From positions 1 through 23,790 of IMG/VR virus record IMGVR_UViG_3300047166_000015: DNA of 23,790 bases. One strand, written 5' to 3'. Source of the DNA: a virus. Position numbers and translations under genes: made by a program. Shown here in pieces: positions 2 through 23,604 of this stretch. Every line of letters begins with the position of its first letter. The stretch's first letter is position 1. The notes beneath the pieces are model-generated. The model searched no databases. It was not told where the DNA came from and saw only the letters and a program-made list of their open reading frames with translations.

Positions 2-679
2 GCCAAGCAGCAGGTGCCGGGGGCGTATGTGGTTGCCACCGATCAGGTGCGCAAAAACTTTGATCTTGTGATGGGCCTTTCACAGACCGATCCGCAACGG
101 TTTCTTCAAATCCACACGGACTCTCCCGACATGGTGAACGGTTTGACGATCCAAATGCGCAGCGCGATTGATACCCAACAAAGAGCCATAAGTGAACGCT
201 TGCGTGCGGGTGTAAGTGGCGGCCAGATGGATGGCGCGATTGCGGCGGCGCGGCCGGTATTTGAAGCGGCTGGGGTTTTGGCCACGAAGCAAAAAGGCCA
301 AACGGATGCGGATGTTCCCGCCTATAATCAGGCCGTTGGGATGCTGCGCACGGAGGTCAACGATTATTTCGAGAAAAACGGCAGAATGCCCGATGACAAA
401 ACCTTGCAGGGCATGGCGCGCGCCGTGACCTTGCAGGGTTTCGTGCCAGGGGATAGGTCGTTTTTTGGCATGGGACCGCCAAAGGATCAGCCGGTTTACA
501 CGCTGCAAAACCAAGGCAAGCCATACCAGATCGACATCAACGCGCCCGCCGCGCAAGCCCTGGCGGCGCCGCTGGTGAATGAATTTATCAAGCAGGCGGG
601 CCATCCGCCCGATGAAGCCACCATCGAGGCAATGCTGAGAAGCAGGTATCCGTCGCTTAACTTCACGAGCGGGCAATAA
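2..679 (+). CDS. Virion-associated protein, C-terminal part (5' truncated by window edge)
   Basis: The reading frame is open from the first bases of the window with no stop, so the GTG at 14 need not be the start; this is probably the C-terminal ~225 residues of a longer protein. It is soluble, mostly helical in character, and has no catalytic motif I recognise. Its stop (677-679) overlaps by one base the start of the giant virion gene (TAATG), so the two are translationally coupled and likely belong to the same virion module. In podovirus-like phages the gene before a giant ejected protein often encodes another internal virion protein or a lytic transglycosylase. That is a context inference only, as the diagnostic N-terminal part is outside the window. 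Confidence 0.75.
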   Translation, partial: AKQQVPGAYVVATDQVRKNFDLVMGLSQTDPQRFLQIHTDSPDMVNGLTIQMRSAIDTQQRAISERLRAGVSGGQMDGAIAAARPVFEAAGVLATKQKGQTDADVPAYNQAVGMLRTEVNDYFEKNGRMPDDKTLQGMARAVTLQGFVPGDRSFFGMGPPKDQPVYTLQNQGKPYQIDINAPAAQALAAPLVNEFIKQAGHPPDEATIEAMLRSRYPSLNFTSGQ

Positions 680-3600
680 TGTCGGGCAGCAATGTGGTGC
701 CGTTTCCGGCGCCCGCCCCGCCGCCCCCGCAAGCAACGCCTCTGCCGCCGCCCGTGGCAGCACCCGTGCCGCCAGCGCCCCCGGCGGCGCAATCGGCTCC
801 GGCGCTGCGGTTGCCGCCGCCCTCGTCGCCCAACGAATCCGACGATACGGCGGCGTTTGTGGCGCAGTTCGTTAAGAAGCAATCCCCGCCCGCGCCGCCG
901 GCCGATGCGGGCGATCAGACGCCGCCTGGTCAGGTTCCGTCCGCGCAAGTGCAGTTGCCGCCGGGGCAGCCGGAGCCAAGTTCGCCGGACGAGTCCGATG
1001 ACACCGCGGCGTTTGTGGCGCAATTCGTTCATGCGCAGCAGGCCCCGGCGACCGCGAACATGGTGGCCGCCCAAGGTTCCAACCCGGACAAAACCGCGCA
1101 AGCCATGGCGACGGCGGCCAAGCTCGGCCTGCCGGTGCCGGCGGTGGAAGCCGACCCGCAGCACTATGCCGACCTCGCCAAGCTATCCGATGACCGCCAG
1201 GTCGTGGCGCGCGATCCGGCGCTGCAAGATTGGATCAAGCAGGACCCGACCAACGCCAAGCTGGCCATTGATGACATTGCGCATCTGGGGGTCATCGGGC
1301 GGCTGAGCCGGGGGCTGGATGAAGGGCGGCTGCAATATCAGGAAGGTGGCGTTGAGGCTAAAAACGCGCTGGCCGGGCCGTTTGGCGGGCCGTCCGCAGC
1401 CAACATCAATCTGCTCGATGCCATCAAAACGCAGTTGCAGTTGGCCCAAGGGCAGGATGAGTTGGCCGATGAGGCGCGGGCGCAAACGGCCATGGCGCAG
1501 CGCGGCGGCCAGCCCGCTATGCAAGGGCATTTGACCGAGCGTGGCTTTGCACCGCAGGCCGGGGAGTATGCCGCCAGCGTTCCGGGCATGGGCGTCTATG
1601 GGGACGTTGCCCAAGGGGTGGGCGAGTTTGCCGGGGCGTCGAAACCGATAGCGGAACAGGCGGCCCTGGCCGCAGGGACCTATGCTCTGGGGCCTTTGGG
1701 GGTGGCCTACCGCACCGCTCGGATGGTTGGCGCGGGCGGTGAGGTGGGGATGGCTGTAGCGCCCGCGTTGGGTCGCGCGGCTGGCATGGGGTTGGGCAAG
1801 GCTGCGCAGATGCTCGGGCCGGCGGCTTTGACCGCCATGGTGGGCAATCAGGTCGTGAGTAGCTACGGGCAGATTTACGACGCGCAGAACGGCGTGAAGG
1901 ACGCCAACGGGCAAGAGATACCCGAGACAACCAAGCAGCTTGTGGCGGCCGGTGGCGCCATACTGGCGGGCGGGGTCATGGCGGCCGGAGGCGGGGCGCA
2001 GCTTGGCCGGTTGCTCAACCTGCCGAAAATCACGTTCGTCCACGATCTGGCGGTGGCGGCGGCGCGGGTGCCGACCGTGCAGCGGGCGTTTGGCAATCTG
2101 TTCGCGGGCGCGGCCAAGGCGGGCATCGTCAACGCGCTGTTGGGCATGGGCATCAACGGCGTGCAATCGGTGGCGCCGCAGATTGGCATGGCGGTGACTT
2201 CGCCGAATTTCGAGACCGTGTTCAACAACCCGGACAAATACGCGGCGCTCAAAAAAGAGATTATTGAGGGGTGGGAGGACAATCTGTTGCTGGGGGCTGG
2301 CCTGCATGTGCCGGCGGCGGGCGTTTCGTTGATGTACGATGTGGGCCGCGCCTCGGCGGCCGGGCGGGCGGCGGAGCTATGGGGCGGCATGATGGACGCC
2401 GCGGCGCAGAGCAAAACCCGGATGCGCGCGCCGGCTTCCTTTGAAGCGTTGATGAAGGCTCATTCCGGCGATGCGGTCTATGTGAACGGTGACGCGCTGG
2501 CGACGTATTATCAGGAAATTGGTTCCGCGCCGGGGGCAAAGAACGATCCGTTTGCGCAGGTCGTGCCGGATATGAAGGATCAGCTTGAACGGGCGCAATT
2601 AACCGGCGGGGTGGTGGAAATCCCCCGGGCGTCTTTTGCCGCAAGGCTCGCGGGCTCCAATGCGGATTACCGGCTGCGTCCGCATATCAAAATCACGCCG
2701 GACGGGATGAGCGCGGAAGAGGCGCAGCAATTCCTGAACGACAACCCCGATATGTTCAAGGGGTTCGATCTGGAGTCCTTGGCTGCCAATGGTGGCGAAG
2801 GGCCAACCCGGGGACACACCTTCGAGGTGGTGAACGTCGCCGAAAATTCCGATGACGCCAAAAACCCGTTGCTGACGGTGCGCGATGAGACCGGCCAGGA
2901 AATCCCTGTCCAAGCCGAGGATTTTAACAATTTCATGCAAGGCCGCCAAGCGACCATCACGCGCGGCGAGGGCGGCACTGGCAAGGTCGGTGAGCACGCC
3001 AACACGCTTGAGGTGGGCGATATTGTCCGCACGGCGGAAGGGGCGCGCGAGGCGGTGCGGGCCGATGTCATGCGCCAGTTGCAGGCAGCCGGGCAGACGG
3101 AGAATCAGGCCAAAACCAACGCGGCGCTGTTTGTGGCGTTTTTTGGCACGATGGGCAGGCTCATGGGGCTTTCGCCCGAGGCGATTTACCAGGCGGAGAA
3201 TATCCAAATCCAGCGTGAGGCGGCCTACGTGGCGGGGCCGGGGCGGTATGACGATCTTGACGCCGCGATTGACGCGAACCGCGCCGGGCGCGGGGGACCA
3301 AGCGACCGCGAAATTTATGGCCCGAGTTTGCTGGAATACCTGACGGAAAAGCCAAACCCGCGCACGCTGGCGGAGGCGCAAAATATGCCCCCGCGCAAGC
3401 TTGCCGGCGGCTTGGTTGATACCGGCGGCAATTTGAAAAGCATGGGCGCGGGCGTCTGGCATTTAGAAGTCAAGACGCGGCGCAAGTTGATAAATGAGAA
3501 CGGGCAACGGCTGCATGAGGCGGCGAAAGATGCCTATGATGCGAGATATTTTCCTGAGCATACCACCACCACCACGCCCGAACAGCTTTTGGCTGCGATA

Positions 3601-6600
3601 CGGGATGAGTTGCACGGGAAAAAGCGTTATCCTGAAATGAGCTATGAGGCTCAAGAAAAACTGCACCAGCGCGAATTGGTCAACTATGTAAACTACCTGG
3701 CGAATGAGGCCGGGCTCGATTTGAAGTCGATGACCAACGATCAGGTGCGGCAAGCCTTTGCTGAGTTCGAGGGGCAGGCGGCGCCGAAGCCAAACCCGGA
3801 CGCGGAATTTGACCAAACAGTTTATCGTGGCACGCCGCAATTTGAACAGCGCCAAGGCGAGACCAAACGCGGTTCTATCCAGTTCCACGAGGGGTTGACG
3901 CTCATCAACCTGTTCAAAAATGCCGACGCCTCCACCTTTCCTCACGAGGCGGCGCATTTGTTTCTGGACATCATGGATCGTGCCGTTCGGACGCCGGACG
4001 CGACGGCTGAGATGCGGACGGACATGGGCAAATTGCGCAAGTGGCTCGGGGTGGGTGAGGACGAAAACCTTCGGGACAATGTGGCGGCGCATGAAAAGTT
4101 CGCGCGTGGTTTCGAGACCTATCTGAAAGAAGGCAATCCGCCTTCTGAGGAATTGCGCGGCGTGTTCGCCAAACTCTCGGCCTGGATCACGCGGGTTTAT
4201 CAGCGGTTGAAGCAGAGCGGCCAGCCGATCAACGATGAGGTGCGCGGCATCATGGACCGGATGTTGGCGACCCGCGAAGCCGTGGATGAGGCGCAAGCCG
4301 CGATGGGAACGCTGAACCCAACGTTCAAAGATGCCAAAATGGCGGGGATGTCGGGGACGCAGTTCAATCTGTACGTCAACAAGATCGCCAAAAAACAAGA
4401 TGAGATTTATGACCGCGTTTTGGCGCGTGTCAGCAAAATGGAAGAGATCAGGCAGACCAAGGCGTGGAACGATGAGCGCGCCGCGCAGATGCCGCATGTT
4501 GAATATGATGTCATCCAAGGCAATCCGGGCGCGCGGACCTGGAGTTATTTTGCGTATGCTAAGGACCTGCTTCGCCCAGACAGGGAAATACCGCGCACGA
4601 AGCTTTCAGAGGCCGCCGTCAAGGCGATCCTCGGGGAGCGCATCATGGGGCTGCCCGATGGCATCCTGGCGCGCAAGAAGGTCCAGGCTGGCGAGGGTAA
4701 GCTCATTGTGGTCCACCCGGACGATGTGGCTGCGGCGTTCGGCTATTCGACTGGCAAGCAAATGCTGGAGGACATGATTGCGGCCAACATCGGCCGCCGC
4801 AACGCCGAACAGGCGACGGGCCGGGATATGTCGTTGAACGGGTATGTGCGGCACCTGACTGAACAAGCCATTCGTGATCGTCTCAATGAAATGTTTGGCG
4901 ACCCTTTGCACGATGGGACGATTGCAGAGATCGCGCAGGAAGAGGCGCACAAGGCATCCACGCTGGACCTTATCAGCACGGAGTTGCGGGCGCTGGCCAA
5001 GCGCAACGGCGAGCCGCCGCCCTGGTCTGTGGAGCAGGCCAAAGCCTGGGTCCAGGAGAGTTTCCTGAAAACCAGCATCCGCCAGGCGATCAAGCCTGGC
5101 CCTTACATTAAGGCCGAACAGAAGGCCGCCCGGGATGCCGAGATCGCGTTGCTGCGGGGCAATGTGGTGGATGCGCTCAAAGCCAAGCAGCGGCAGATGT
5201 TGGCCCATATCGCGGCCGGCGAGGCGCAAGCCTTCAAGAAGATGTATGATAAGACGGTTGCTAATTGGAAAAACCTGGGCAAAACGGTACGGTTGCCCAA
5301 GATCGAGCCGCATTTCGCCGATCAGATTCACGCGATCCTGGACACCATCGGCATCCCGATTGCCCGTGACGCCGATGAGTTGCGCCGGGGCACGGCCGGA
5401 CAAAACTTGACCGATTTTATAGCCGACCGGCAGGAGCAAGGTTGGCAGATTGATGTGCCGTTGTTTCTGCACAACGTGGTGGGCAATCAGTGGCTTCGCC
5501 CGGGGCAGTATGATTATCGAGATTTTAATACCCATGATTTCATGCTCACGTCCGATCTCATTACGTCTTTGAAGCATGTTGGCAAGGAGGTGAATGAAAT
5601 CCTGGTTGGCGAAAAGCGGGAGGATTTTCAAAGCCGCAAAGCGCAAATGCTGGAAGAGGCAAAAGACGTGCCCAACATCTGGCGTGAAAGCGGAACGCGG
5701 GTTCCGAAGGGGCTTGAGTTGGTGCTGACACGCGGGCTTCTGGGCACCGGGCGGGAGTTGAAGGCCAATTTGCGGCGCCTGGAAAACGCGATGATTATGC
5801 TGGGCGGGCGCCATGGCCGCGCCTTTGTGAGCGCGATGGTCGATGCGCTGAAAATCAGCGCGGCGCGAAAAGACAAATACATGGAAAAAGTTCACCAGCA
5901 ATTCAAGGATTTGTATGCCTCGATGCCGAAGGAGTGGCGCGAGCGCGATGATGACAAGATAGACGTGCCTGAGTGTCCCAAGAACGGCAGCACATTATGG
6001 TCGCGCGAATCTTTGCGGATGGTCGCCATGAACATGGGCAACACGGGCGACCGGTCCAATTTTGAAAAAATGTATAAAGGCGAGGGATGGGATGCGGAAG
6101 CTGTTTATGACGCGCTGAGATCAAAAAAGTATTTGACGGCGGACGACTGGAATTATGTGCAGGGCGTTTGGAACATCATGGATGAATGGAAGCCGGTTTT
6201 TGATGAATTTCAACGGCGGATGACAGGGGTTGGCATTACCTACGTGAAGGCCGAGCCGATCACAACCGGCCACGGGCAAACGCTGCGCGGCGGTTATTTC
6301 CCGGTCATGTATGACGCGGTGAACGCGAACACCGCCATGATGCGCGAAAAGATCGAGGGGGTCGAGGGTCAGGAGAGCGACAAGGGGCCGTATGGCCGGG
6401 GCAGTTTGGCGGCGCGCACCTATCAGGGCGCCATGGTCAACCGTACCGGTTATTTTGGTCCGTTGACCTATGATCCCATTGCGTTCGCTAACCGGTTCAC
6501 CGACATGATCCATGACTTGGCGTACCGCGAGTCCATCATGAATGCCTGGAAACTGGTCAATGATCCCGAGATCAAGGCCATGATGATCGACAAGCTCGGG

Positions 6601-7782
6601 CCGGAGTTGCAGGCAAAGTTTAACCCGTGGCTGCGCGATCTGGCGGGCATGAGCGGCAAGCTAGATAACCGTGATCGCTTTATGCAAAATATGACGAAGC
6701 GGTTTCGGCTATGTTCGACCGCCATGTATATTGGGTTTAACCTTATGACCACGGCGTTGCACGGGCCTACCGCTTACATCCATTCGCTGGGTGAGACTGA
6801 CAAACTGGCCGCGATTAAAAACTCCTTGGGCTTGGCGGATTTTAGAATGAGCAATCCGCGGTGGCAGTTCATTATGAACAACTCGCTTGAATGCGCCGAA
6901 TTGGCCAAGCATGTCGATCTTGATGCCAGGCAGAATTTGCGCAGCATTTTGCAAAAAGAGAATTGGCAGACAAAGACTCTTAATGTCGCCTCGCAGTTGT
7001 CGCAATGGCTTCTCGCAAAAAGTCTGGTTTTTTCGGCTGGTGTGGTTTGGGAGACAGAATATGAAAAATTAATGGATCAGGGGATGGAGCATGAAGAGGC
7101 CGCTCTTGCGGCGGATCGAGCGGTGCGTGTGTCGCATGGCGGTGTGAATTTTATGGATCAGGCGGAAGCGTTTCGCAGCGAAGGAATCATGCGGAATCTG
7201 CTTTGGTTCGGCGGTTTCTGGAACAGCATCTTCAACAAATATGTTGACACAATCGCCATCGGTAAACGCGGCGTTTATGCGGCGCGCGCGGGCGACATGC
7301 AGGGCGCCAAAGAGGATTTTGGCAAAGTTCTTTCCAACACCTTTACATATCTTTTGATGCCGGCGGTGATTACGGCTGCGGCGCGCGGGTATTTACAAGG
7401 CGACAAGCCGGACAACGAGAGTTTTGAGAAATGGTATCTTGAAAACTTGTTGGTGGAACCGGCGCAACCTTTGCCCATCATCAACGCGGTGGCCAATATG
7501 TGGCTGCGACACCAAAAGACGCCGGACGTATTCGGCCCGGAGGAGACGATCTCTGACATTGTGGCGGCCGGACGCAATGATTATGATTTGTTCCAAACCG
7601 GGCAATATGATCCAAACATTCTGTTGCACAATGTGGAGGCGGTTGGATCAGTGGTGCCGCTGCCTGGCGCGGTGCCGCTGACCAAAGCCGGCGAGTATCT
7701 TTGGGATTGGGGAGATGGAAATTTGCCCCAGCAGACCCTTGCGGATGTGGCCAAAGGGGTGTTGCGCGGGCCACCTCACTAA
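679..7782 (+). CDS. Giant polyvalent virion protein with HEAAH zincin-like motif (2,367 aa)
   Basis: The ATG at 679 follows a GAGCGGG ribosome-binding site and overlaps the upstream stop. Residues 1-125 are Pro/Ala-rich and contain a 17-residue repeat (49-65 and 101-117). Residues ~320-500 are Gly/Ala-rich and strongly hydrophobic, as expected of virion proteins that insert into host envelopes. At 1075-1093, LINLFKNADASTF is followed by HEAAH (H1089, E1090, H1093), the zinc-metallopeptidase signature seen in phage 'polyvalent' proteins, which are multi-domain proteins injected with the DNA. Charged helical segments make up much of the middle, and hydrophobic stretches recur near 2013-2035 and 2219-2240. 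The size, Ala-rich membrane-active segments and position before the lysis genes suggest an internal, ejected virion protein that acts during DNA entry. The metallopeptidase assignment rests on the motif; other domains are unrecognised. Confidence 0.85.
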   Translation: MSGSNVVPFPAPAPPPPQATPLPPPVAAPVPPAPPAAQSAPALRLPPPSSPNESDDTAAFVAQFVKKQSPPAPPADAGDQTPPGQVPSAQVQLPPGQPEPSSPDESDDTAAFVAQFVHAQQAPATANMVAAQGSNPDKTAQAMATAAKLGLPVPAVEADPQHYADLAKLSDDRQVVARDPALQDWIKQDPTNAKLAIDDIAHLGVIGRLSRGLDEGRLQYQEGGVEAKNALAGPFGGPSAANINLLDAIKTQLQLAQGQDELADEARAQTAMAQRGGQPAMQGHLTERGFAPQAGEYAASVPGMGVYGDVAQGVGEFAGASKPIAEQAALAAGTYALGPLGVAYRTARMVGAGGEVGMAVAPALGRAAGMGLGKAAQMLGPAALTAMVGNQVVSSYGQIYDAQNGVKDANGQEIPETTKQLVAAGGAILAGGVMAAGGGAQLGRLLNLPKITFVHDLAVAAARVPTVQRAFGNLFAGAAKAGIVNALLGMGINGVQSVAPQIGMAVTSPNFETVFNNPDKYAALKKEIIEGWEDNLLLGAGLHVPAAGVSLMYDVGRASAAGRAAELWGGMMDAAAQSKTRMRAPASFEALMKAHSGDAVYVNGDALATYYQEIGSAPGAKNDPFAQVVPDMKDQLERAQLTGGVVEIPRASFAARLAGSNADYRLRPHIKITPDGMSAEEAQQFLNDNPDMFKGFDLESLAANGGEGPTRGHTFEVVNVAENSDDAKNPLLTVRDETGQEIPVQAEDFNNFMQGRQATITRGEGGTGKVGEHANTLEVGDIVRTAEGAREAVRADVMRQLQAAGQTENQAKTNAALFVAFFGTMGRLMGLSPEAIYQAENIQIQREAAYVAGPGRYDDLDAAIDANRAGRGGPSDREIYGPSLLEYLTEKPNPRTLAEAQNMPPRKLAGGLVDTGGNLKSMGAGVWHLEVKTRRKLINENGQRLHEAAKDAYDARYFPEHTTTTTPEQLLAAIRDELHGKKRYPEMSYEAQEKLHQRELVNYVNYLANEAGLDLKSMTNDQVRQAFAEFEGQAAPKPNPDAEFDQTVYRGTPQFEQRQGETKRGSIQFHEGLTLINLFKNADASTFPHEAAHLFLDIMDRAVRTPDATAEMRTDMGKLRKWLGVGEDENLRDNVAAHEKFARGFETYLKEGNPPSEELRGVFAKLSAWITRVYQRLKQSGQPINDEVRGIMDRMLATREAVDEAQAAMGTLNPTFKDAKMAGMSGTQFNLYVNKIAKKQDEIYDRVLARVSKMEEIRQTKAWNDERAAQMPHVEYDVIQGNPGARTWSYFAYAKDLLRPDREIPRTKLSEAAVKAILGERIMGLPDGILARKKVQAGEGKLIVVHPDDVAAAFGYSTGKQMLEDMIAANIGRRNAEQATGRDMSLNGYVRHLTEQAIRDRLNEMFGDPLHDGTIAEIAQEEAHKASTLDLISTELRALAKRNGEPPPWSVEQAKAWVQESFLKTSIRQAIKPGPYIKAEQKAARDAEIALLRGNVVDALKAKQRQMLAHIAAGEAQAFKKMYDKTVANWKNLGKTVRLPKIEPHFADQIHAILDTIGIPIARDADELRRGTAGQNLTDFIADRQEQGWQIDVPLFLHNVVGNQWLRPGQYDYRDFNTHDFMLTSDLITSLKHVGKEVNEILVGEKREDFQSRKAQMLEEAKDVPNIWRESGTRVPKGLELVLTRGLLGTGRELKANLRRLENAMIMLGGRHGRAFVSAMVDALKISAARKDKYMEKVHQQFKDLYASMPKEWRERDDDKIDVPECPKNGSTLWSRESLRMVAMNMGNTGDRSNFEKMYKGEGWDAEAVYDALRSKKYLTADDWNYVQGVWNIMDEWKPVFDEFQRRMTGVGITYVKAEPITTGHGQTLRGGYFPVMYDAVNANTAMMREKIEGVEGQESDKGPYGRGSLAARTYQGAMVNRTGYFGPLTYDPIAFANRFTDMIHDLAYRESIMNAWKLVNDPEIKAMMIDKLGPELQAKFNPWLRDLAGMSGKLDNRDRFMQNMTKRFRLCSTAMYIGFNLMTTALHGPTAYIHSLGETDKLAAIKNSLGLADFRMSNPRWQFIMNNSLECAELAKHVDLDARQNLRSILQKENWQTKTLNVASQLSQWLLAKSLVFSAGVVWETEYEKLMDQGMEHEEAALAADRAVRVSHGGVNFMDQAEAFRSEGIMRNLLWFGGFWNSIFNKYVDTIAIGKRGVYAARAGDMQGAKEDFGKVLSNTFTYLLMPAVITAAARGYLQGDKPDNESFEKWYLENLLVEPAQPLPIINAVANMWLRHQKTPDVFGPEETISDIVAAGRNDYDLFQTGQYDPNILLHNVEAVGSVVPLPGAVPLTKAGEYLWDWGDGNLPQQTLADVAKGVLRGPPH
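823..1029 (+). repeat. Two in-frame copies of a 17-residue acidic motif in the giant protein
   Basis: Codons 49-65 (bases 823-873) and 101-117 (979-1029) encode SSP(N/D)ESDDTAAFVAQFV, 16 of 17 residues identical, offset by 52 codons. Each copy is surrounded by Pro-rich linker. It looks like a duplicated short linear motif, perhaps a docking site for another virion protein. Confidence 0.8.
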
Positions 7783-16430: not shown

Positions 16431-16485
16431 GCGTTGCGCCGCGTTGCGTTGCGTTGCGCCGCGCCGCGCCGCACAGCGCTGCGCA
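16431..16485. repeat. Pentanucleotide array A: 11 GCGNN units
   Basis: Eleven consecutive 5-base units fill the space between the genes at 16194-16415 and 16494-16985. Ten begin with GCG and one with GCA. Their last two bases are mostly TT or CC. On the leftward mRNA the unit reads CGCNN. The array ends nine bases before the stop codon of the upstream gene. Confidence 0.9.
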
Positions 16486-16493
16486 GTTAACTT

Positions 16494-16985
16494 TCAAATA
16501 TTTTTCAGCATATCGCGCAAAACCTCTGCCGTGGGTTTCGGTTTGGTGTCCTCCGTTGCCGCCGCTTTCTGAGCTTTTTCCGAAGCGGCAAACTCGATCA
16601 GCGCGCACATGGCAATCTCCCGGTTGGCCGCCAGGGCCGCCTCCCGCGGCATGTCGTTGGCCGCGCATACCGCGCGCATCATGAAACGGCCAGCCTTTGC
16701 CGCCTTGCGCTTGATGCGCGACCGCGCGTTGGCGCCAACGAGGTGAGTGTCCTGCGGCGGCAGCCGCATTTGCCCCACCTTCCAGATCGACGCGAAAATA
16801 GCGCCGCTCTCCCGATTGAGATTTTCAATGGCGCGCATCAGAACATACCGCTTTTCTTTGACATCAAACCCCACTTCGCGGCTAAGCGTTTCATAGGTGA
16901 TAATGCCGCCAATCGGCGCCTCGGCCAAAATTGCCTGGATCGCTTTTATTTCGATGGCGGTTTTTAGCATGGGATCAAAGTTCAT
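16494..16985 (-). CDS. Winged-helix-like early protein flanked by pentamer arrays
   Basis: The ATG at 16985 has GGAG six bases upstream; 163 residues. Residues ~10-72 (AIQAILAEAPIGGIITYETL, then LSREVGF, a helix and GAIFASIWKVG) have the helix-helix-strand spacing of a winged helix-turn-helix. A basic region follows (RSRIKRKAAKAGRFMMR, 88-104), then Ala-rich helices and a Lys/Thr linker. It is probably a DNA- or RNA-binding regulator, not a recognised family. Array A lies directly downstream and array B directly upstream, so its mRNA is bounded by the repeats on both sides. Confidence 0.75.
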   Translation of the reverse strand: MNFDPMLKTAIEIKAIQAILAEAPIGGIITYETLSREVGFDVKEKRYVLMRAIENLNRESGAIFASIWKVGQMRLPPQDTHLVGANARSRIKRKAAKAGRFMMRAVCAANDMPREAALAANREIAMCALIEFAASEKAQKAAATEDTKPKPTAEVLRDMLKNI

Positions 16986-17003
16986 TACGGACTCCGATTA
17001 AGG

Positions 17004-17275
17004 GCGTTGCGCTGCGAGGCGTTGCGCGGCGATGCGCTGCGCTGCGCGGCGACGCGCCGCGGTGCGCTGCGGCGCGGTGCGAGCGAATAACAAAACAAAT
17101 CGTTGCGTAGCGACGCGGCGCGGCGCGTTGCGCTGCGGAGCGCGGCGGGGTGTAGCGGTGCGAGCGAATAACAAAACAAATCGTTGCGTAGCGACGCGGC
17201 GCGACACGTTGCGTTGCGTGGCGTTGCGGCGCGTACCGCTGTGTTGCGAGGCGATGCGGTGCGAAGCGATGCGAC
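17004..17275. repeat. Pentanucleotide array B: 16 + 12 + 18 units with two identical spacers
   Basis: The array has three blocks of 5-base units: 17004-17083 (16 units, all GCG-first), 17105-17164 (12, one exception) and 17186-17275 (18, three exceptions). Identical 21-nt A-rich spacers at 17084-17104 and 17165-17185 separate the blocks. The region fills almost all of the ~300 bases between two early genes. All open frames across it arise because CGCNN cannot form a stop codon on the - strand, so I call no gene here. Confidence 0.9.
17074..17203 (+). repeat. Perfect 49-bp direct repeat inside array B
   Basis: Bases 17074-17122 and 17155-17203 are identical over 49 bp, with an offset of 81. 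Each copy has two pentamers, the 21-nt spacer beginning CGAATAACAAAACAAAT, and the following three pentamers plus three bases. The spacer ends can pair weakly (AGCGA with TCGTT, one wobble) around a 13-base A-rich loop. The motif GTTGC-GTA-GCGAC just after it can form a second small hairpin. Confidence 0.9.
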
Positions 17276-17282
17276 CTCATGA

Positions 17283-17879
17283 TTAGGCGGCGAGCAATTC
17301 GCGGTTGTCAACCCAAGTCAGCGAGGCGACTTTGAAGCGGCCATTGGTGCCGCCCTTTTCGGGGCGGAAGCGGCCCGTGCCAATATACATTCCAGCAATT
17401 TGCAACATTTCCTCAAAAACGTCCTTAGTGATAATCGGGTCGAGAATGTGAACATCGAATTTCGTTTCCCATTCGACGAGTTGCGGAAACATCCGTGGCA
17501 CGCGCTTGCCGGAGCCGCGTACCCCGTCCGCGTTGGCGGAAATCAAAATCGGTTTCACCGTTTCGGGATCAATGTTCAGAGCGGGGTCCGACAAAATCGC
17601 TATGCCGCTCAAAAACTTCGCGGTCCAGGTCGCCTTGCCCTGGCCAGGGATTTGGCGCTTGGAATACTTGGCCGCCGCCGCGATGGCTTGGTGCAGTCCG
17701 TGAGCGGGGATCACCACCGTTTGCTTGCCGTTGACCGTGGCGACGTTCATTTTTGAGCGCCAGGTGCGCTTGTCGTACGCATCATGCGACTCCCGCTCCA
17801 AGTGTGGTTGATCGTGCTGGCGCGATTGAGACAGCGGCGAAAGGCCGATGATGTGGCAGGTTGCGATAGAAAAATTCAT
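17283..17879 (-). CDS. Conserved phage protein adjacent to recT, possible RAMP/Cas7-like fold
   Basis: The ATG at 17879 has AGGAG six bases upstream; 198 residues. It opens with a strand and loop, IIGLSPLSQSR (10-20), then HDAYDKRTWRSK, a strand-helix unit VVIPAHGLHQAIAAAAKY (55-72), a central region, and near the C-terminus IGTGRFRPEKGGTNGRF (166-182). I recognise this family as a recurrent neighbour of recT in proteobacterial phages. The 'IP-x-x-x-L-x-x-A' strand-helix and the Gly-rich loop resemble signatures of RAMP/Cas7 RNA-binding domains, but that is a by-eye analogy. Pentamer arrays B and C flank it immediately on both sides. Confidence 0.8.
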   Translation of the reverse strand: MNFSIATCHIIGLSPLSQSRQHDQPHLERESHDAYDKRTWRSKMNVATVNGKQTVVIPAHGLHQAIAAAAKYSKRQIPGQGKATWTAKFLSGIAILSDPALNIDPETVKPILISANADGVRGSGKRVPRMFPQLVEWETKFDVHILDPIITKDVFEEMLQIAGMYIGTGRFRPEKGGTNGRFKVASLTWVDNRELLAA

Positions 17880-17910
17880 TTCGGTCTCCTATGGAAAGGC
17901 GTTGAAAGGG

Positions 17911-17980
17911 ACGTTGCGTTGCGTTGCGGTGCGCAGCGTTGCGCCGCGCTGCGATGCGTTGCGCTGCGGCGCGGTGCGAC
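17911..17980. repeat. Pentanucleotide array C: 14 units
   Basis: Fourteen units lie between recT and the start of the 198-aa gene; the first begins ACG and the other 13 begin GCG. TT is the commonest final dinucleotide (5 of 14). The array ends eight bases before the recT stop codon and is separated from the downstream start by ~30 bases that carry the ribosome-binding site. Confidence 0.9.
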
Positions 17981-22037: not shown

Positions 22038-22355
22038 ATGAACATCACGAAGGCGAGGGTTCGTGTGCTTGAAAAAGCACGCGCGGGGAAACTTATGATT
22101 CTGGGCGGTTTTGGCGGCGACACCGCGGACATCAAGCCGGTGTCAAGCCCGATTTTTGAGCATCGCACCGCCGTTCTGGTGCTGTTGCAGGCGGGGCTTG
22201 TGCAAGCCGGCGATGGGTTCAACCAGTATGAGTTGACGGAGGCGGGCAAGGCATTGCTCGATGCGGCGCCGCCCTGTTTGCGGCCCGGTCATGTGCCGAA
22301 GCGGTACAAGCCCAAGGCTGCCGTTGAAACGATACGGTCTGTCGATGGGGCGTGA
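22038..22355 (+). CDS. Winged-helix-like early protein (105 aa)
   Basis: The ATG at 22038 has CAGGAG six bases upstream. The segment from about 40 to 75 (HRTAVLVLLQAGLVQAGDG then YELTEAGKALLDA) has the helix-wing pattern of small winged-helix proteins where 'LT-x-x-G' marks the wing end. The N-terminus is basic and Gly-rich. It is likely a DNA-binding accessory protein. Its TGA overlaps the nuclease GTG. Confidence 0.7.
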   Translation: MNITKARVRVLEKARAGKLMILGGFGGDTADIKPVSSPIFEHRTAVLVLLQAGLVQAGDGFNQYELTEAGKALLDAAPPCLRPGHVPKRYKPKAAVETIRSVDGA

Positions 22356-22711
22356 GCCGCGAAACTGAGTTCCAACTCCACCGCGCCTGCGCGGAGTTTC
22401 TGGACTGGGCGCTGCCGAGCAATGCCTACCATACCGCCGTTGACGCTGGCGCGCATTCATCGCGCGGGGCCGGCGCCAAAGCCAAAGCCCGGGGCGTCAA
22501 AGCCGGGTTCCCGGACCATCTGATTTTCTACGCCGGGCGCCTGATTGCCATCGAGTTCAAAACCGCCACGGGCAAGGTCTCGCCCGCGCAACATGAATGC
22601 CACGCCCGGCTGCGGCTCAACGGGGTGCTGGTCTATGTCTGCCGCTCCGTCGAAAGTCTGCGGCTCGCCCTGGAAGAAGCAGGCATCCCGCTGCGGGCGC
22701 GGCTGTCGTGA
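22352..22711 (+). CDS. VRR-NUC domain nuclease
   Basis: The GTG at 22352 overlaps the previous stop (GTGA); 119 residues. The signature GVKAGFPDHLIF (48-59, P54-D55), IAIEFKTATG (E68 and K70) and a Q in SPAQ (80) form the PD-(D/E)xK VRR-NUC active site. The N-terminal E6 and a helix complete the usual fold. Single-domain phage members cleave branched DNA, such as Holliday junctions or replication forks, so a role in resolving recombination or packaging intermediates is likely. It lies between an early regulator and the methyltransferase, with overlapping frames. Confidence 0.9.
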   Translation: MSRETEFQLHRACAEFLDWALPSNAYHTAVDAGAHSSRGAGAKAKARGVKAGFPDHLIFYAGRLIAIEFKTATGKVSPAQHECHARLRLNGVLVYVCRSVESLRLALEEAGIPLRARLS

Positions 22712-23604
22712 GGGCTTATTATAACGAAATCGATCCGTTTTGCGCGCAATGGCTGCGCAACCTGATAGCGCGCGGCCTGCTGCCGCCGGGGGATGTTGAT
22801 GAGCGGTCAATCAAACTTGTCAGCCCAGATGACCTTCTGGGATTTACTCAATGCCACTTCTTCGCCGGCATCGGCATCTGGCCCCACGCCTTGCGCGCCG
22901 CCGGATGGGATGACGCCCGCCCCGTCTGGACCGGAAGCTGCCCCTGTCAGCCGTTCTCCGGCGCGGGCAAGGGCGGCGGCTTCGATGATCCCCGCCACCT
23001 CTGGCCAGACTGGTATCGGCTCGTCAAAGCCGCCCACCCTGTCTCAATCCTTGGCGAACAGGTTGATGGTCCGGCTGGCCGGGCGTGGTTCGACCTTGTA
23101 TGCGCAGACCTGGAAGCAAGCGGCTACGCCTGCGGGCAGGTCGTATTTAATTCTGCGAGCGTCGGCGCTCCCAACATCCGTCACCGCCGCTTCTGGCTGG
23201 CCCACACCAACCGTCAAAGCCAGGAGCGGGGGCGCGACCACGGACCCGGACAAGGTTTTGGCGCGGGCGAAGGGCGGGCACGCGAACGATTTGCAGGATT
23301 TTGTCCAGTTGGCGGTGGGCTCAACCACGCCAGCATCGCGGGATTACCGGACGCCGAACCACCGGACTTTGACGGAGCGCGGCGGGGGCGAACAGTTGCC
23401 CAACCAGACGGTCCATCCGATCCCTGGCGCGAGCTTGAATGGATCGACTGCCGTGACGGAAAATCGCGGCCTACTCAACCCGGAATTTTCCCGCTGGCTC
23501 CAAGGTATCCCGGCGATGTGGGGAAACTACGCGCCTACGGCAACGCGCTCAACGCCATCGTCGCGCAAGAGTTCGTCGCCGCCGTGATGGACGTGATCCC
23601 ATGA
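22708..23604 (+). CDS. Cytosine-C5 DNA methyltransferase
   Basis: The GTG at 22708 overlaps the nuclease stop (GTGA), so the in-frame extension to 22597 is rejected; 298 residues. Motif I is HFFAGIGIW (50-58). Motif IV is GSCPCQPFSGAGK, with the catalytic Cys at C80. A motif VI-like LGEQV stands where ENV is usual, and IRHRRFW matches motif VIII (Q/R-x-R-x-R). LRAYGNALNAIVAQEF near the end is motif X. It transfers a methyl group from AdoMet to cytosine in a specific site, protecting phage DNA from restriction or marking it. The target site cannot be read from sequence. A second protein-like frame overlaps most of it. Confidence 0.92.
   Translation: MRAYYNEIDPFCAQWLRNLIARGLLPPGDVDERSIKLVSPDDLLGFTQCHFFAGIGIWPHALRAAGWDDARPVWTGSCPCQPFSGAGKGGGFDDPRHLWPDWYRLVKAAHPVSILGEQVDGPAGRAWFDLVCADLEASGYACGQVVFNSASVGAPNIRHRRFWLAHTNRQSQERGRDHGPGQGFGAGEGRARERFAGFCPVGGGLNHASIAGLPDAEPPDFDGARRGRTVAQPDGPSDPWRELEWIDCRDGKSRPTQPGIFPLAPRYPGDVGKLRAYGNALNAIVAQEFVAAVMDVIP
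22799..23587 (+). CDS. Overlapping +1-frame protein inside the methyltransferase gene (262 aa)
   Basis: The ATG at 22799 has GGGGG six bases upstream and opens a second frame nested in the methyltransferase gene. Segments such as NATSSPASASGPTPCAPPDG, LAGRGSTLYAQTWKQAATP, SGWPTPTVKARSGG and LNPEFSRWLQGIPAMWG match, as I recall them, a recurrent protein family annotated beside or within phage cytosine methyltransferases. The product is Ser/Thr/Pro-rich with WPTP motifs and has no known catalytic site. If both frames are translated, the DNA is dual-coding. In GC-rich DNA chance open frames are common, so residue resemblance is the main argument. Confidence 0.55.
   Translation: MSGQSNLSAQMTFWDLLNATSSPASASGPTPCAPPDGMTPAPSGPEAAPVSRSPARARAAASMIPATSGQTGIGSSKPPTLSQSLANRLMVRLAGRGSTLYAQTWKQAATPAGRSYLILRASALPTSVTAASGWPTPTVKARSGGATTDPDKVLARAKGGHANDLQDFVQLAVGSTTPASRDYRTPNHRTLTERGGGEQLPNQTVHPIPGASLNGSTAVTENRGLLNPEFSRWLQGIPAMWGNYAPTATRSTPSSRKSSSPP

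Follow-up and report, generated by a model that had tools for sequence, protein, structure and literature searches.

Pentanucleotide arrays beside a Cas7-like gene in a viral genome probably encode VIPR guide RNAs on a C-N-C scaffold

The stretch of viral DNA analysed here, referred to as the window (23,790 nucleotides; IMG/VR record IMGVR_UViG_3300047166_000015), is in our judgment, with a probability of roughly 0.9, the site of a phage VIPR locus of a clade with a CNC scaffold, in which arrays of NNCGC units would encode guide RNAs that silence the genes of competing phages. The window most likely encodes about five such guide RNAs (vrRNAs), each of roughly 11-16 NN units. The analysis established the anatomy of the locus, the homology and predicted fold of its proteins, the linkage of the arrays to Vipr, their strand and constant 3' end, and the one-base-skip matches made by guides of the clade.

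Introduction

VIPR systems, as presented in a 2026 preprint, consist of a phage RAMP protein (Vipr), an accessory gene (vap) and guide RNAs (PMC13142463). Their guides are described there as 9-16 YNNGG repeats in which the NN bases read duplex DNA and one target base is skipped per unit (PMC13142463). In that system Vipr belongs to the ancestral RAMP family and has a thumb domain in contact with the guide, and it binds vrRNAs of ~100 nt. Seven types are distinguished, with a GGY/NN unit "or a related consensus", and the arrays have an invariant 3' tail, for which a structured pseudoknot is shown in the SUSP1 clade (PMC13142463). A first-pass annotation of the window, which recorded the arrays and knew of no described function for them, is superseded on that point by this description.

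Results

Organization of the arrays

A recount in register gave 71 units in five blocks of 11, 16, 12, 18 and 14, with GCG at the start of 65 units and 15 of the 16 possible trailing dinucleotides in use (TT 16, CT 9, CC, AC, GC and GT 6 each, TC none), in exact agreement with the earlier hand count. Read along the gene (minus) strand, the unit is NNCGC. Perfect runs extend over 8, 16, 9, 4, 5, 6 and 13 units. When the window was shuffled 100 times with dinucleotides preserved, four or more units in a row arose 0.14 times per shuffle and the longest run was 4, as against the observed 16 and 13.

The blocks lie between genes, in three gaps of a single minus-strand operon, whose order is YqaJ exonuclease, recT, array A, the 198-aa gene vipr, arrays B1, B2 and B3, the 163-aa gene vap, array C and a 73-aa ORF. 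The candidate guide arrays all lie on the minus strand. Array A (17911..17980), between recT and vipr, has 14 units with the NN series GT AC GC AG AA AT AG GG AA TG AC, followed by a constant 3' end, AA AA AACG. Downstream of vipr, array B1 (17186..17275; 18 units) reads GT AT TT AC AT CT AA AG TA GC AA CA AA, then AACGT GT GC GT TA AACG, and is followed by B2 (17105..17164), with 12 units of CT AC TA CC CG TC AG AA GC GC GT TA. Array B3 (17004..17083), upstream of vap, has 16 units (CT AC GC AG AC GG GT CG AG AG AT CG AA CT AG AA), and the 11 units of array C (16431..16485), downstream of vap, are of low complexity (TG AG TG GG GG GG AA AA AA GG AA).

The same 21-nt linker (CGAATAACAAAACAAATCGTT) occurs twice, between blocks 2 and 3 and between blocks 3 and 4, with one copy between B1 and B2 (17165..17185, minus strand; AACGATTTGTTTTGTTATTCG on the sense strand) and the other between B2 and B3 (17084..17104, minus strand). 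The linker after B1 is likely the end of one guide RNA together with the start of the next. Because the linker is duplicated with its flanks, the arrays do expand by duplication.

The Vipr and Vap proteins

Judged from sequence profiles and a predicted structure, the 198-aa gene (17283..17879, minus strand) is vipr, encoding a single small Cas7-like RAMP. A family profile built from 37 relatives had as its sole sequence match in the PDB the Vipr of SUSP1 (36pp_D; E 1.9e-8), and hhalign of the two gave E 8.5e-9 with about 24% identity in the aligned region. The AlphaFold2 (AF2) model has a pLDDT of 92.9, and in Foldseek it matched type VII Cas7 (E 1.7e-7, TM about 0.53) as well as Csm3, Cmr and Cascade subunits. 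Residues G163, G167, G169, R170, G180 and R181 are invariant in the family, which carries a glycine-rich loop (G-loop), GIGRFRPEKGGxNGRF. A relative 75% identical to the window's Vipr is present in a Roseomonas MAG.

The 163-aa gene (16494..16985, minus strand) is predicted to be a vap with a winged-helix, DNA-binding fold, on the basis of AF2, Foldseek and its linkage to vipr. Its model (pLDDT 86.7) has an H-E-H-H-E-E wing plus long C-terminal helices; the structural neighbours in Foldseek include many winged-helix proteins, none below E 0.001, and the alignment with SUSP1 vap1 is weak (E 0.004, probability 8%). PADLOC, Pfam and NCBIfam recognized neither the window's Vipr nor its vap.

Elsewhere in the window, a VRR_NUC gene and an overlapping C5 cytosine methylase gene lie at 22352-22711 and 22597-23604, and a 2367-aa protein with a large polyvalent protein domain (LPD22) occupies 679-7782, or 30% of the contig.

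Recurrence and linkage

A scan of IMG/VR by the repeat alone, with a pattern of eight GCGNN units, found at least 119 viral stretches, many of them with several arrays, 10-16 different dinucleotides and all arrays on one strand. Among the repeat-found loci that were fetched, the 198-aa protein has a homologue in 85, the 163-aa protein in about 64 and recT in only 7. The arrays do recur beside the two genes, a check that the first-pass annotation had proposed. The same pattern in bacterial genomes gave mostly single-unit simple repeats; varied NN together with a Vipr homologue occurred there in a Roseomonas MAG (L238) and in a region of Ancylobacter (L196), the strain A. amanitiformis DSM 15561 carrying the latter, a CNC-clade locus.

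The reverse search consisted of two protein-only searches for Vipr, which yielded 88 loci and, being independent of the repeat, removed the circularity from the linkage of array and Vipr. Sense CGC/NN runs of at least 6 units lie within 2.5 kb in 58 of these loci, and of the remainder only about eight lack CNC arrays (mixed CNC, CAC or CTC). Arrays on a C[G/A/T]C scaffold thus accompany about 80 of the 88 Vipr relatives, with CGC in most, CAC in 7 and CTC in 1, and GGC or GGY arrays occur at L303, L305, L306 and L333. A vap homologue is present at 80 of the 88 loci and a recT homologue at 4, a count on which we rejected a connection with recT and annealing (the idea of a 5-nt footprint); the genes linked to the arrays are those for the 198-aa and 163-aa proteins.

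Across the relatives, CGC is kept in 4075 of 4549 units and the variation falls in two fixed columns over hundreds of arrays. The first-pass annotation was thus far right in seeing a constant scaffold that carries variable content, an "information-bearing series".

Arrays most often have 8-16 units. AA is the closing NN in 63% of them, as against 9% at internal positions, AACG follows the array in 45%, and a constant 3' end resembling AACGCAACG closes 169 of 319 arrays, which fits a guide with a 3' handle, as expected. By inspection, hairpins bracket the arrays in some relatives (for example L108 and L238); the window has no significant fold.

Six loci with divergent RAMP-like proteins (L020, L025, L065, L089, L098 and L111) carry sense GCG repeats whose second N is often G; these are possibly another VIPR type or another form of array.

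Target code

A total of 372 non-redundant guides were compared with 2.03 Mb of related phage DNA in which arrays had been masked, a match being at least 19 of 20 bases over 10 consecutive NN. Scoring was base-level with the constant AA tail units trimmed, earlier small scans having been too weak, and a low-complexity GC-run guide of L315, which had inflated the skip-3 and reversed controls, was filtered out. With one target base skipped per unit, 11 guides matched, or about 10 independent ones since two are near copies from related phages, compared with 0, 1, 1 and 1 at skips of 0, 2, 3 and 4. When the order of units was shuffled eleven times, skip 1 gave a mean of 1.0 (range 0-5). Of the 10 matches inside genes, 9 skipped the third base of the codon, compared with 2 of 8 from the shuffles.

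The targets comprise the vipr G-loop, an SNF2 helicase, a serine resolvase, AAA_24, VRR_NUC and an Sf6-type small terminase, along with a protein that resembles a large terminase by eye and has no Pfam match. An L069 guide matches the SNF2 helicase gene of L031 at 13 of 15 NN, and near-identical guides of L069 and L031 match the serine resolvase of L286. The VRR_NUC gene is matched in three phages by a guide of L044, a locus that carries only a divergent RAMP-like protein; the window phage has a member of this gene family.

At L061 (12591 onward), the guide that immediately follows the vap of that locus matches, in antisense, the vap of L071, L009 and L024; in L071 it fits 11 of 13 units with the skip on the wobble base, which is suggestive and not significant alone. 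A phase-mixture test of NN content was not significant beyond composition (z 0.85), the best fit being to antisense codon positions 1-2. For the window's own guides, target searches with 9-unit cores gave no matches and those with 8-unit cores gave 12, 8 and 16 chance-like matches, none extending. One Roseomonas guide, searched for in 250 relatives, likewise gave no match.

Taken with the published account of type II, these results suggest how the locus may work. The arrays would be transcribed as NNCGC guide RNAs, which in most relatives would close with the constant 3' end AACGCAACG. Vipr subunits would coat the guide, each taking one pentamer, holding its CGC and exposing the two N bases, a step carried over from binding measurements that concern GGY to a window whose scaffold is CGC. 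The NN series would then pair with duplex DNA, skipping one target base per unit, usually the wobble base of a codon, and binding would repress the genes of competing phages, as in type II.

Alternative explanations

The alternative that fares best, which we nevertheless consider improbable, is that the arrays derive from VIPR and act in cis or on self, as in autoregulation of vipr, and not against rivals. One L308 guide matches its own contig, and a guide at L069:1361-1460 reads its own vipr. The latter spells TT CG TC GA AA GG GG CT AA GG, which equals positions 1 and 2 of the codons for FR(S/P)E(N/K)GGLNG in the Vipr G-loop, and matches the vipr genes of 14 loci at 18-19 of 20 bases, its own included. 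The fit is better elsewhere, however, with 19 of 20 in five other loci and 18 of 20 in its own vipr, where the shortfall arises because the serine codon is AGC in place of TCN, a mismatch of a complete dinucleotide. Most strong targets, moreover, are located in other phages, which favours guides aimed at competitors.

Less probable still is a binding array at the level of DNA, in which vap or RecT would bind GCG at each half helical turn, as in an iteron or recombination site. The strict 5-bp register and the predicted winged-helix protein of the operon would suit such an array. It would, however, need no fixed strand relative to vipr, and CGC-type arrays are sense in 319 cases and antisense in 4; nor would it need a constant 3' end, wobble-skipping matches to genes or a Cas7-like partner, and the middle base of the scaffold changes among relatives.

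A structured regulatory RNA or protein sponge, the former among the suggestions of the first-pass annotation, is very unlikely: CGC-rich units could form local hairpins, but the array segments of the window fold no more strongly than dinucleotide shuffles (z -0.6 to +1.4), and no Rfam family was found in the window or in 14 related loci.

We give almost no weight to a functionless pentanucleotide microsatellite drifting by slippage from GCGTT or GCGCC, for which the prevalence of TT in the window and the duplicated linker might speak, since the observed linkage and targets contradict it, the arrays recurring beside the same two genes in divergent phages with NN content that matches target genes, as do the variation confined to two columns and the contrast with the simple repeats of bacteria; the first-pass annotation had likewise argued against simple slippage.

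Scaffold types and the Vipr tree

A quick tree of 112 Vipr rows, with several long branches, set the CNC rows apart from most GGY rows, SUSP1 and LESphi2 among them, at 96% SH-aLRT. Given this split and a scaffold of CGC and not GGY, the locus is not filed as type II. Whole arrays of CAC/NN occur at L278, L280, L288, L291, L293, L296 and L302 and of CTC/NN at L290, all with Viprs close to the window's; a single clade (98%) unites six CAC loci, with L302 and L290 placed apart, and any count of scaffold switches is approximate because the tree is quick and has long branches. L303, whose long branch adjoins the half of the tree that holds the window, has a GGC/NN array (L303:10700-10760) near a Vipr about 48% identical, which may reflect a switch of scaffold or an older state.

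We put at even odds a further proposal, that this is a VIPR branch with a C-N-C scaffold of its own, in which the middle base has been switched among close relatives (CGC, CAC, CTC) without any change in the one-base-skip, wobble-blind code, and in which some guides are directed against the G-loop codons universal to the vipr genes of rivals, the own gene being partly spared by a different serine codon.

Discussion

If these assignments hold, a months-old class of RNA-guided systems extends to a scaffold that the main text of the preprint does not mention, and the noncontiguous, one-base-skip code gains independent support, from sequence alone, beyond the systems already studied experimentally. 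Natural guides are now on hand by the hundred, and for some of them a target can be read. The distribution of scaffolds (CGC, CAC, CTC, GGY) over the protein tree makes the specificity of Vipr for its scaffold testable and orthogonal pairs of Vipr and guide possible. The guide that matches G-loop codons of vipr at 14 loci would make VIPR-against-VIPR targeting visible.

Among known systems, the Cas7 family of class 1 CRISPR (type VII Cas7, Csm3, Cascade Cas7) has in common with the window's Vipr the RAMP fold and the glycine-rich loop. Class 1 CRISPR identity was rejected: no CRISPR repeats were found in the window and no recognized cas genes beyond the RAMP in the operon, where class 1 systems have multiple cas genes. 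The guide here appears noncontiguous and is served by one RAMP, and the neighbours of vipr are recT, the YqaJ exonuclease and vap, unlike the cas genes of class 1.

Pseudomonas phage LESphi2 (OQ594955) encodes a Vipr homologue of 194 aa (tblastn E 2e-4) and, next after it, a 163-aa product, with arrays in the upstream gap, as here; its scaffold, GGC/GGY, differs from the CGC of the window.

With VIPR in general the window shares a minimal layout of vipr and one vap with long intergenic gaps, and a fixed trinucleotide that alternates with hypervariable NN, CGC here and CAC or CTC in relatives. The published type II (Escherichia phage SUSP1 and a Pseudomonas fulva prophage) differs in its scaffold, which is GGY as against C[G/A/T]C in the clade and CGC in the window, and in a Vipr related at the low identity given above and a vap that is barely alignable; of its conserved pseudoknot tail no counterpart was found beyond the short constant AACGCAACG. 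Type II nonetheless has a homologous Vipr of about 195 aa, is phage-encoded with vipr followed by vap, and has guide arrays up- and downstream on the gene strand, built of pentanucleotide units with two free bases. The one-base skip, the preference for the wobble position and targets in competing phages, other VIPR loci among them, are common to type II and the CNC clade.
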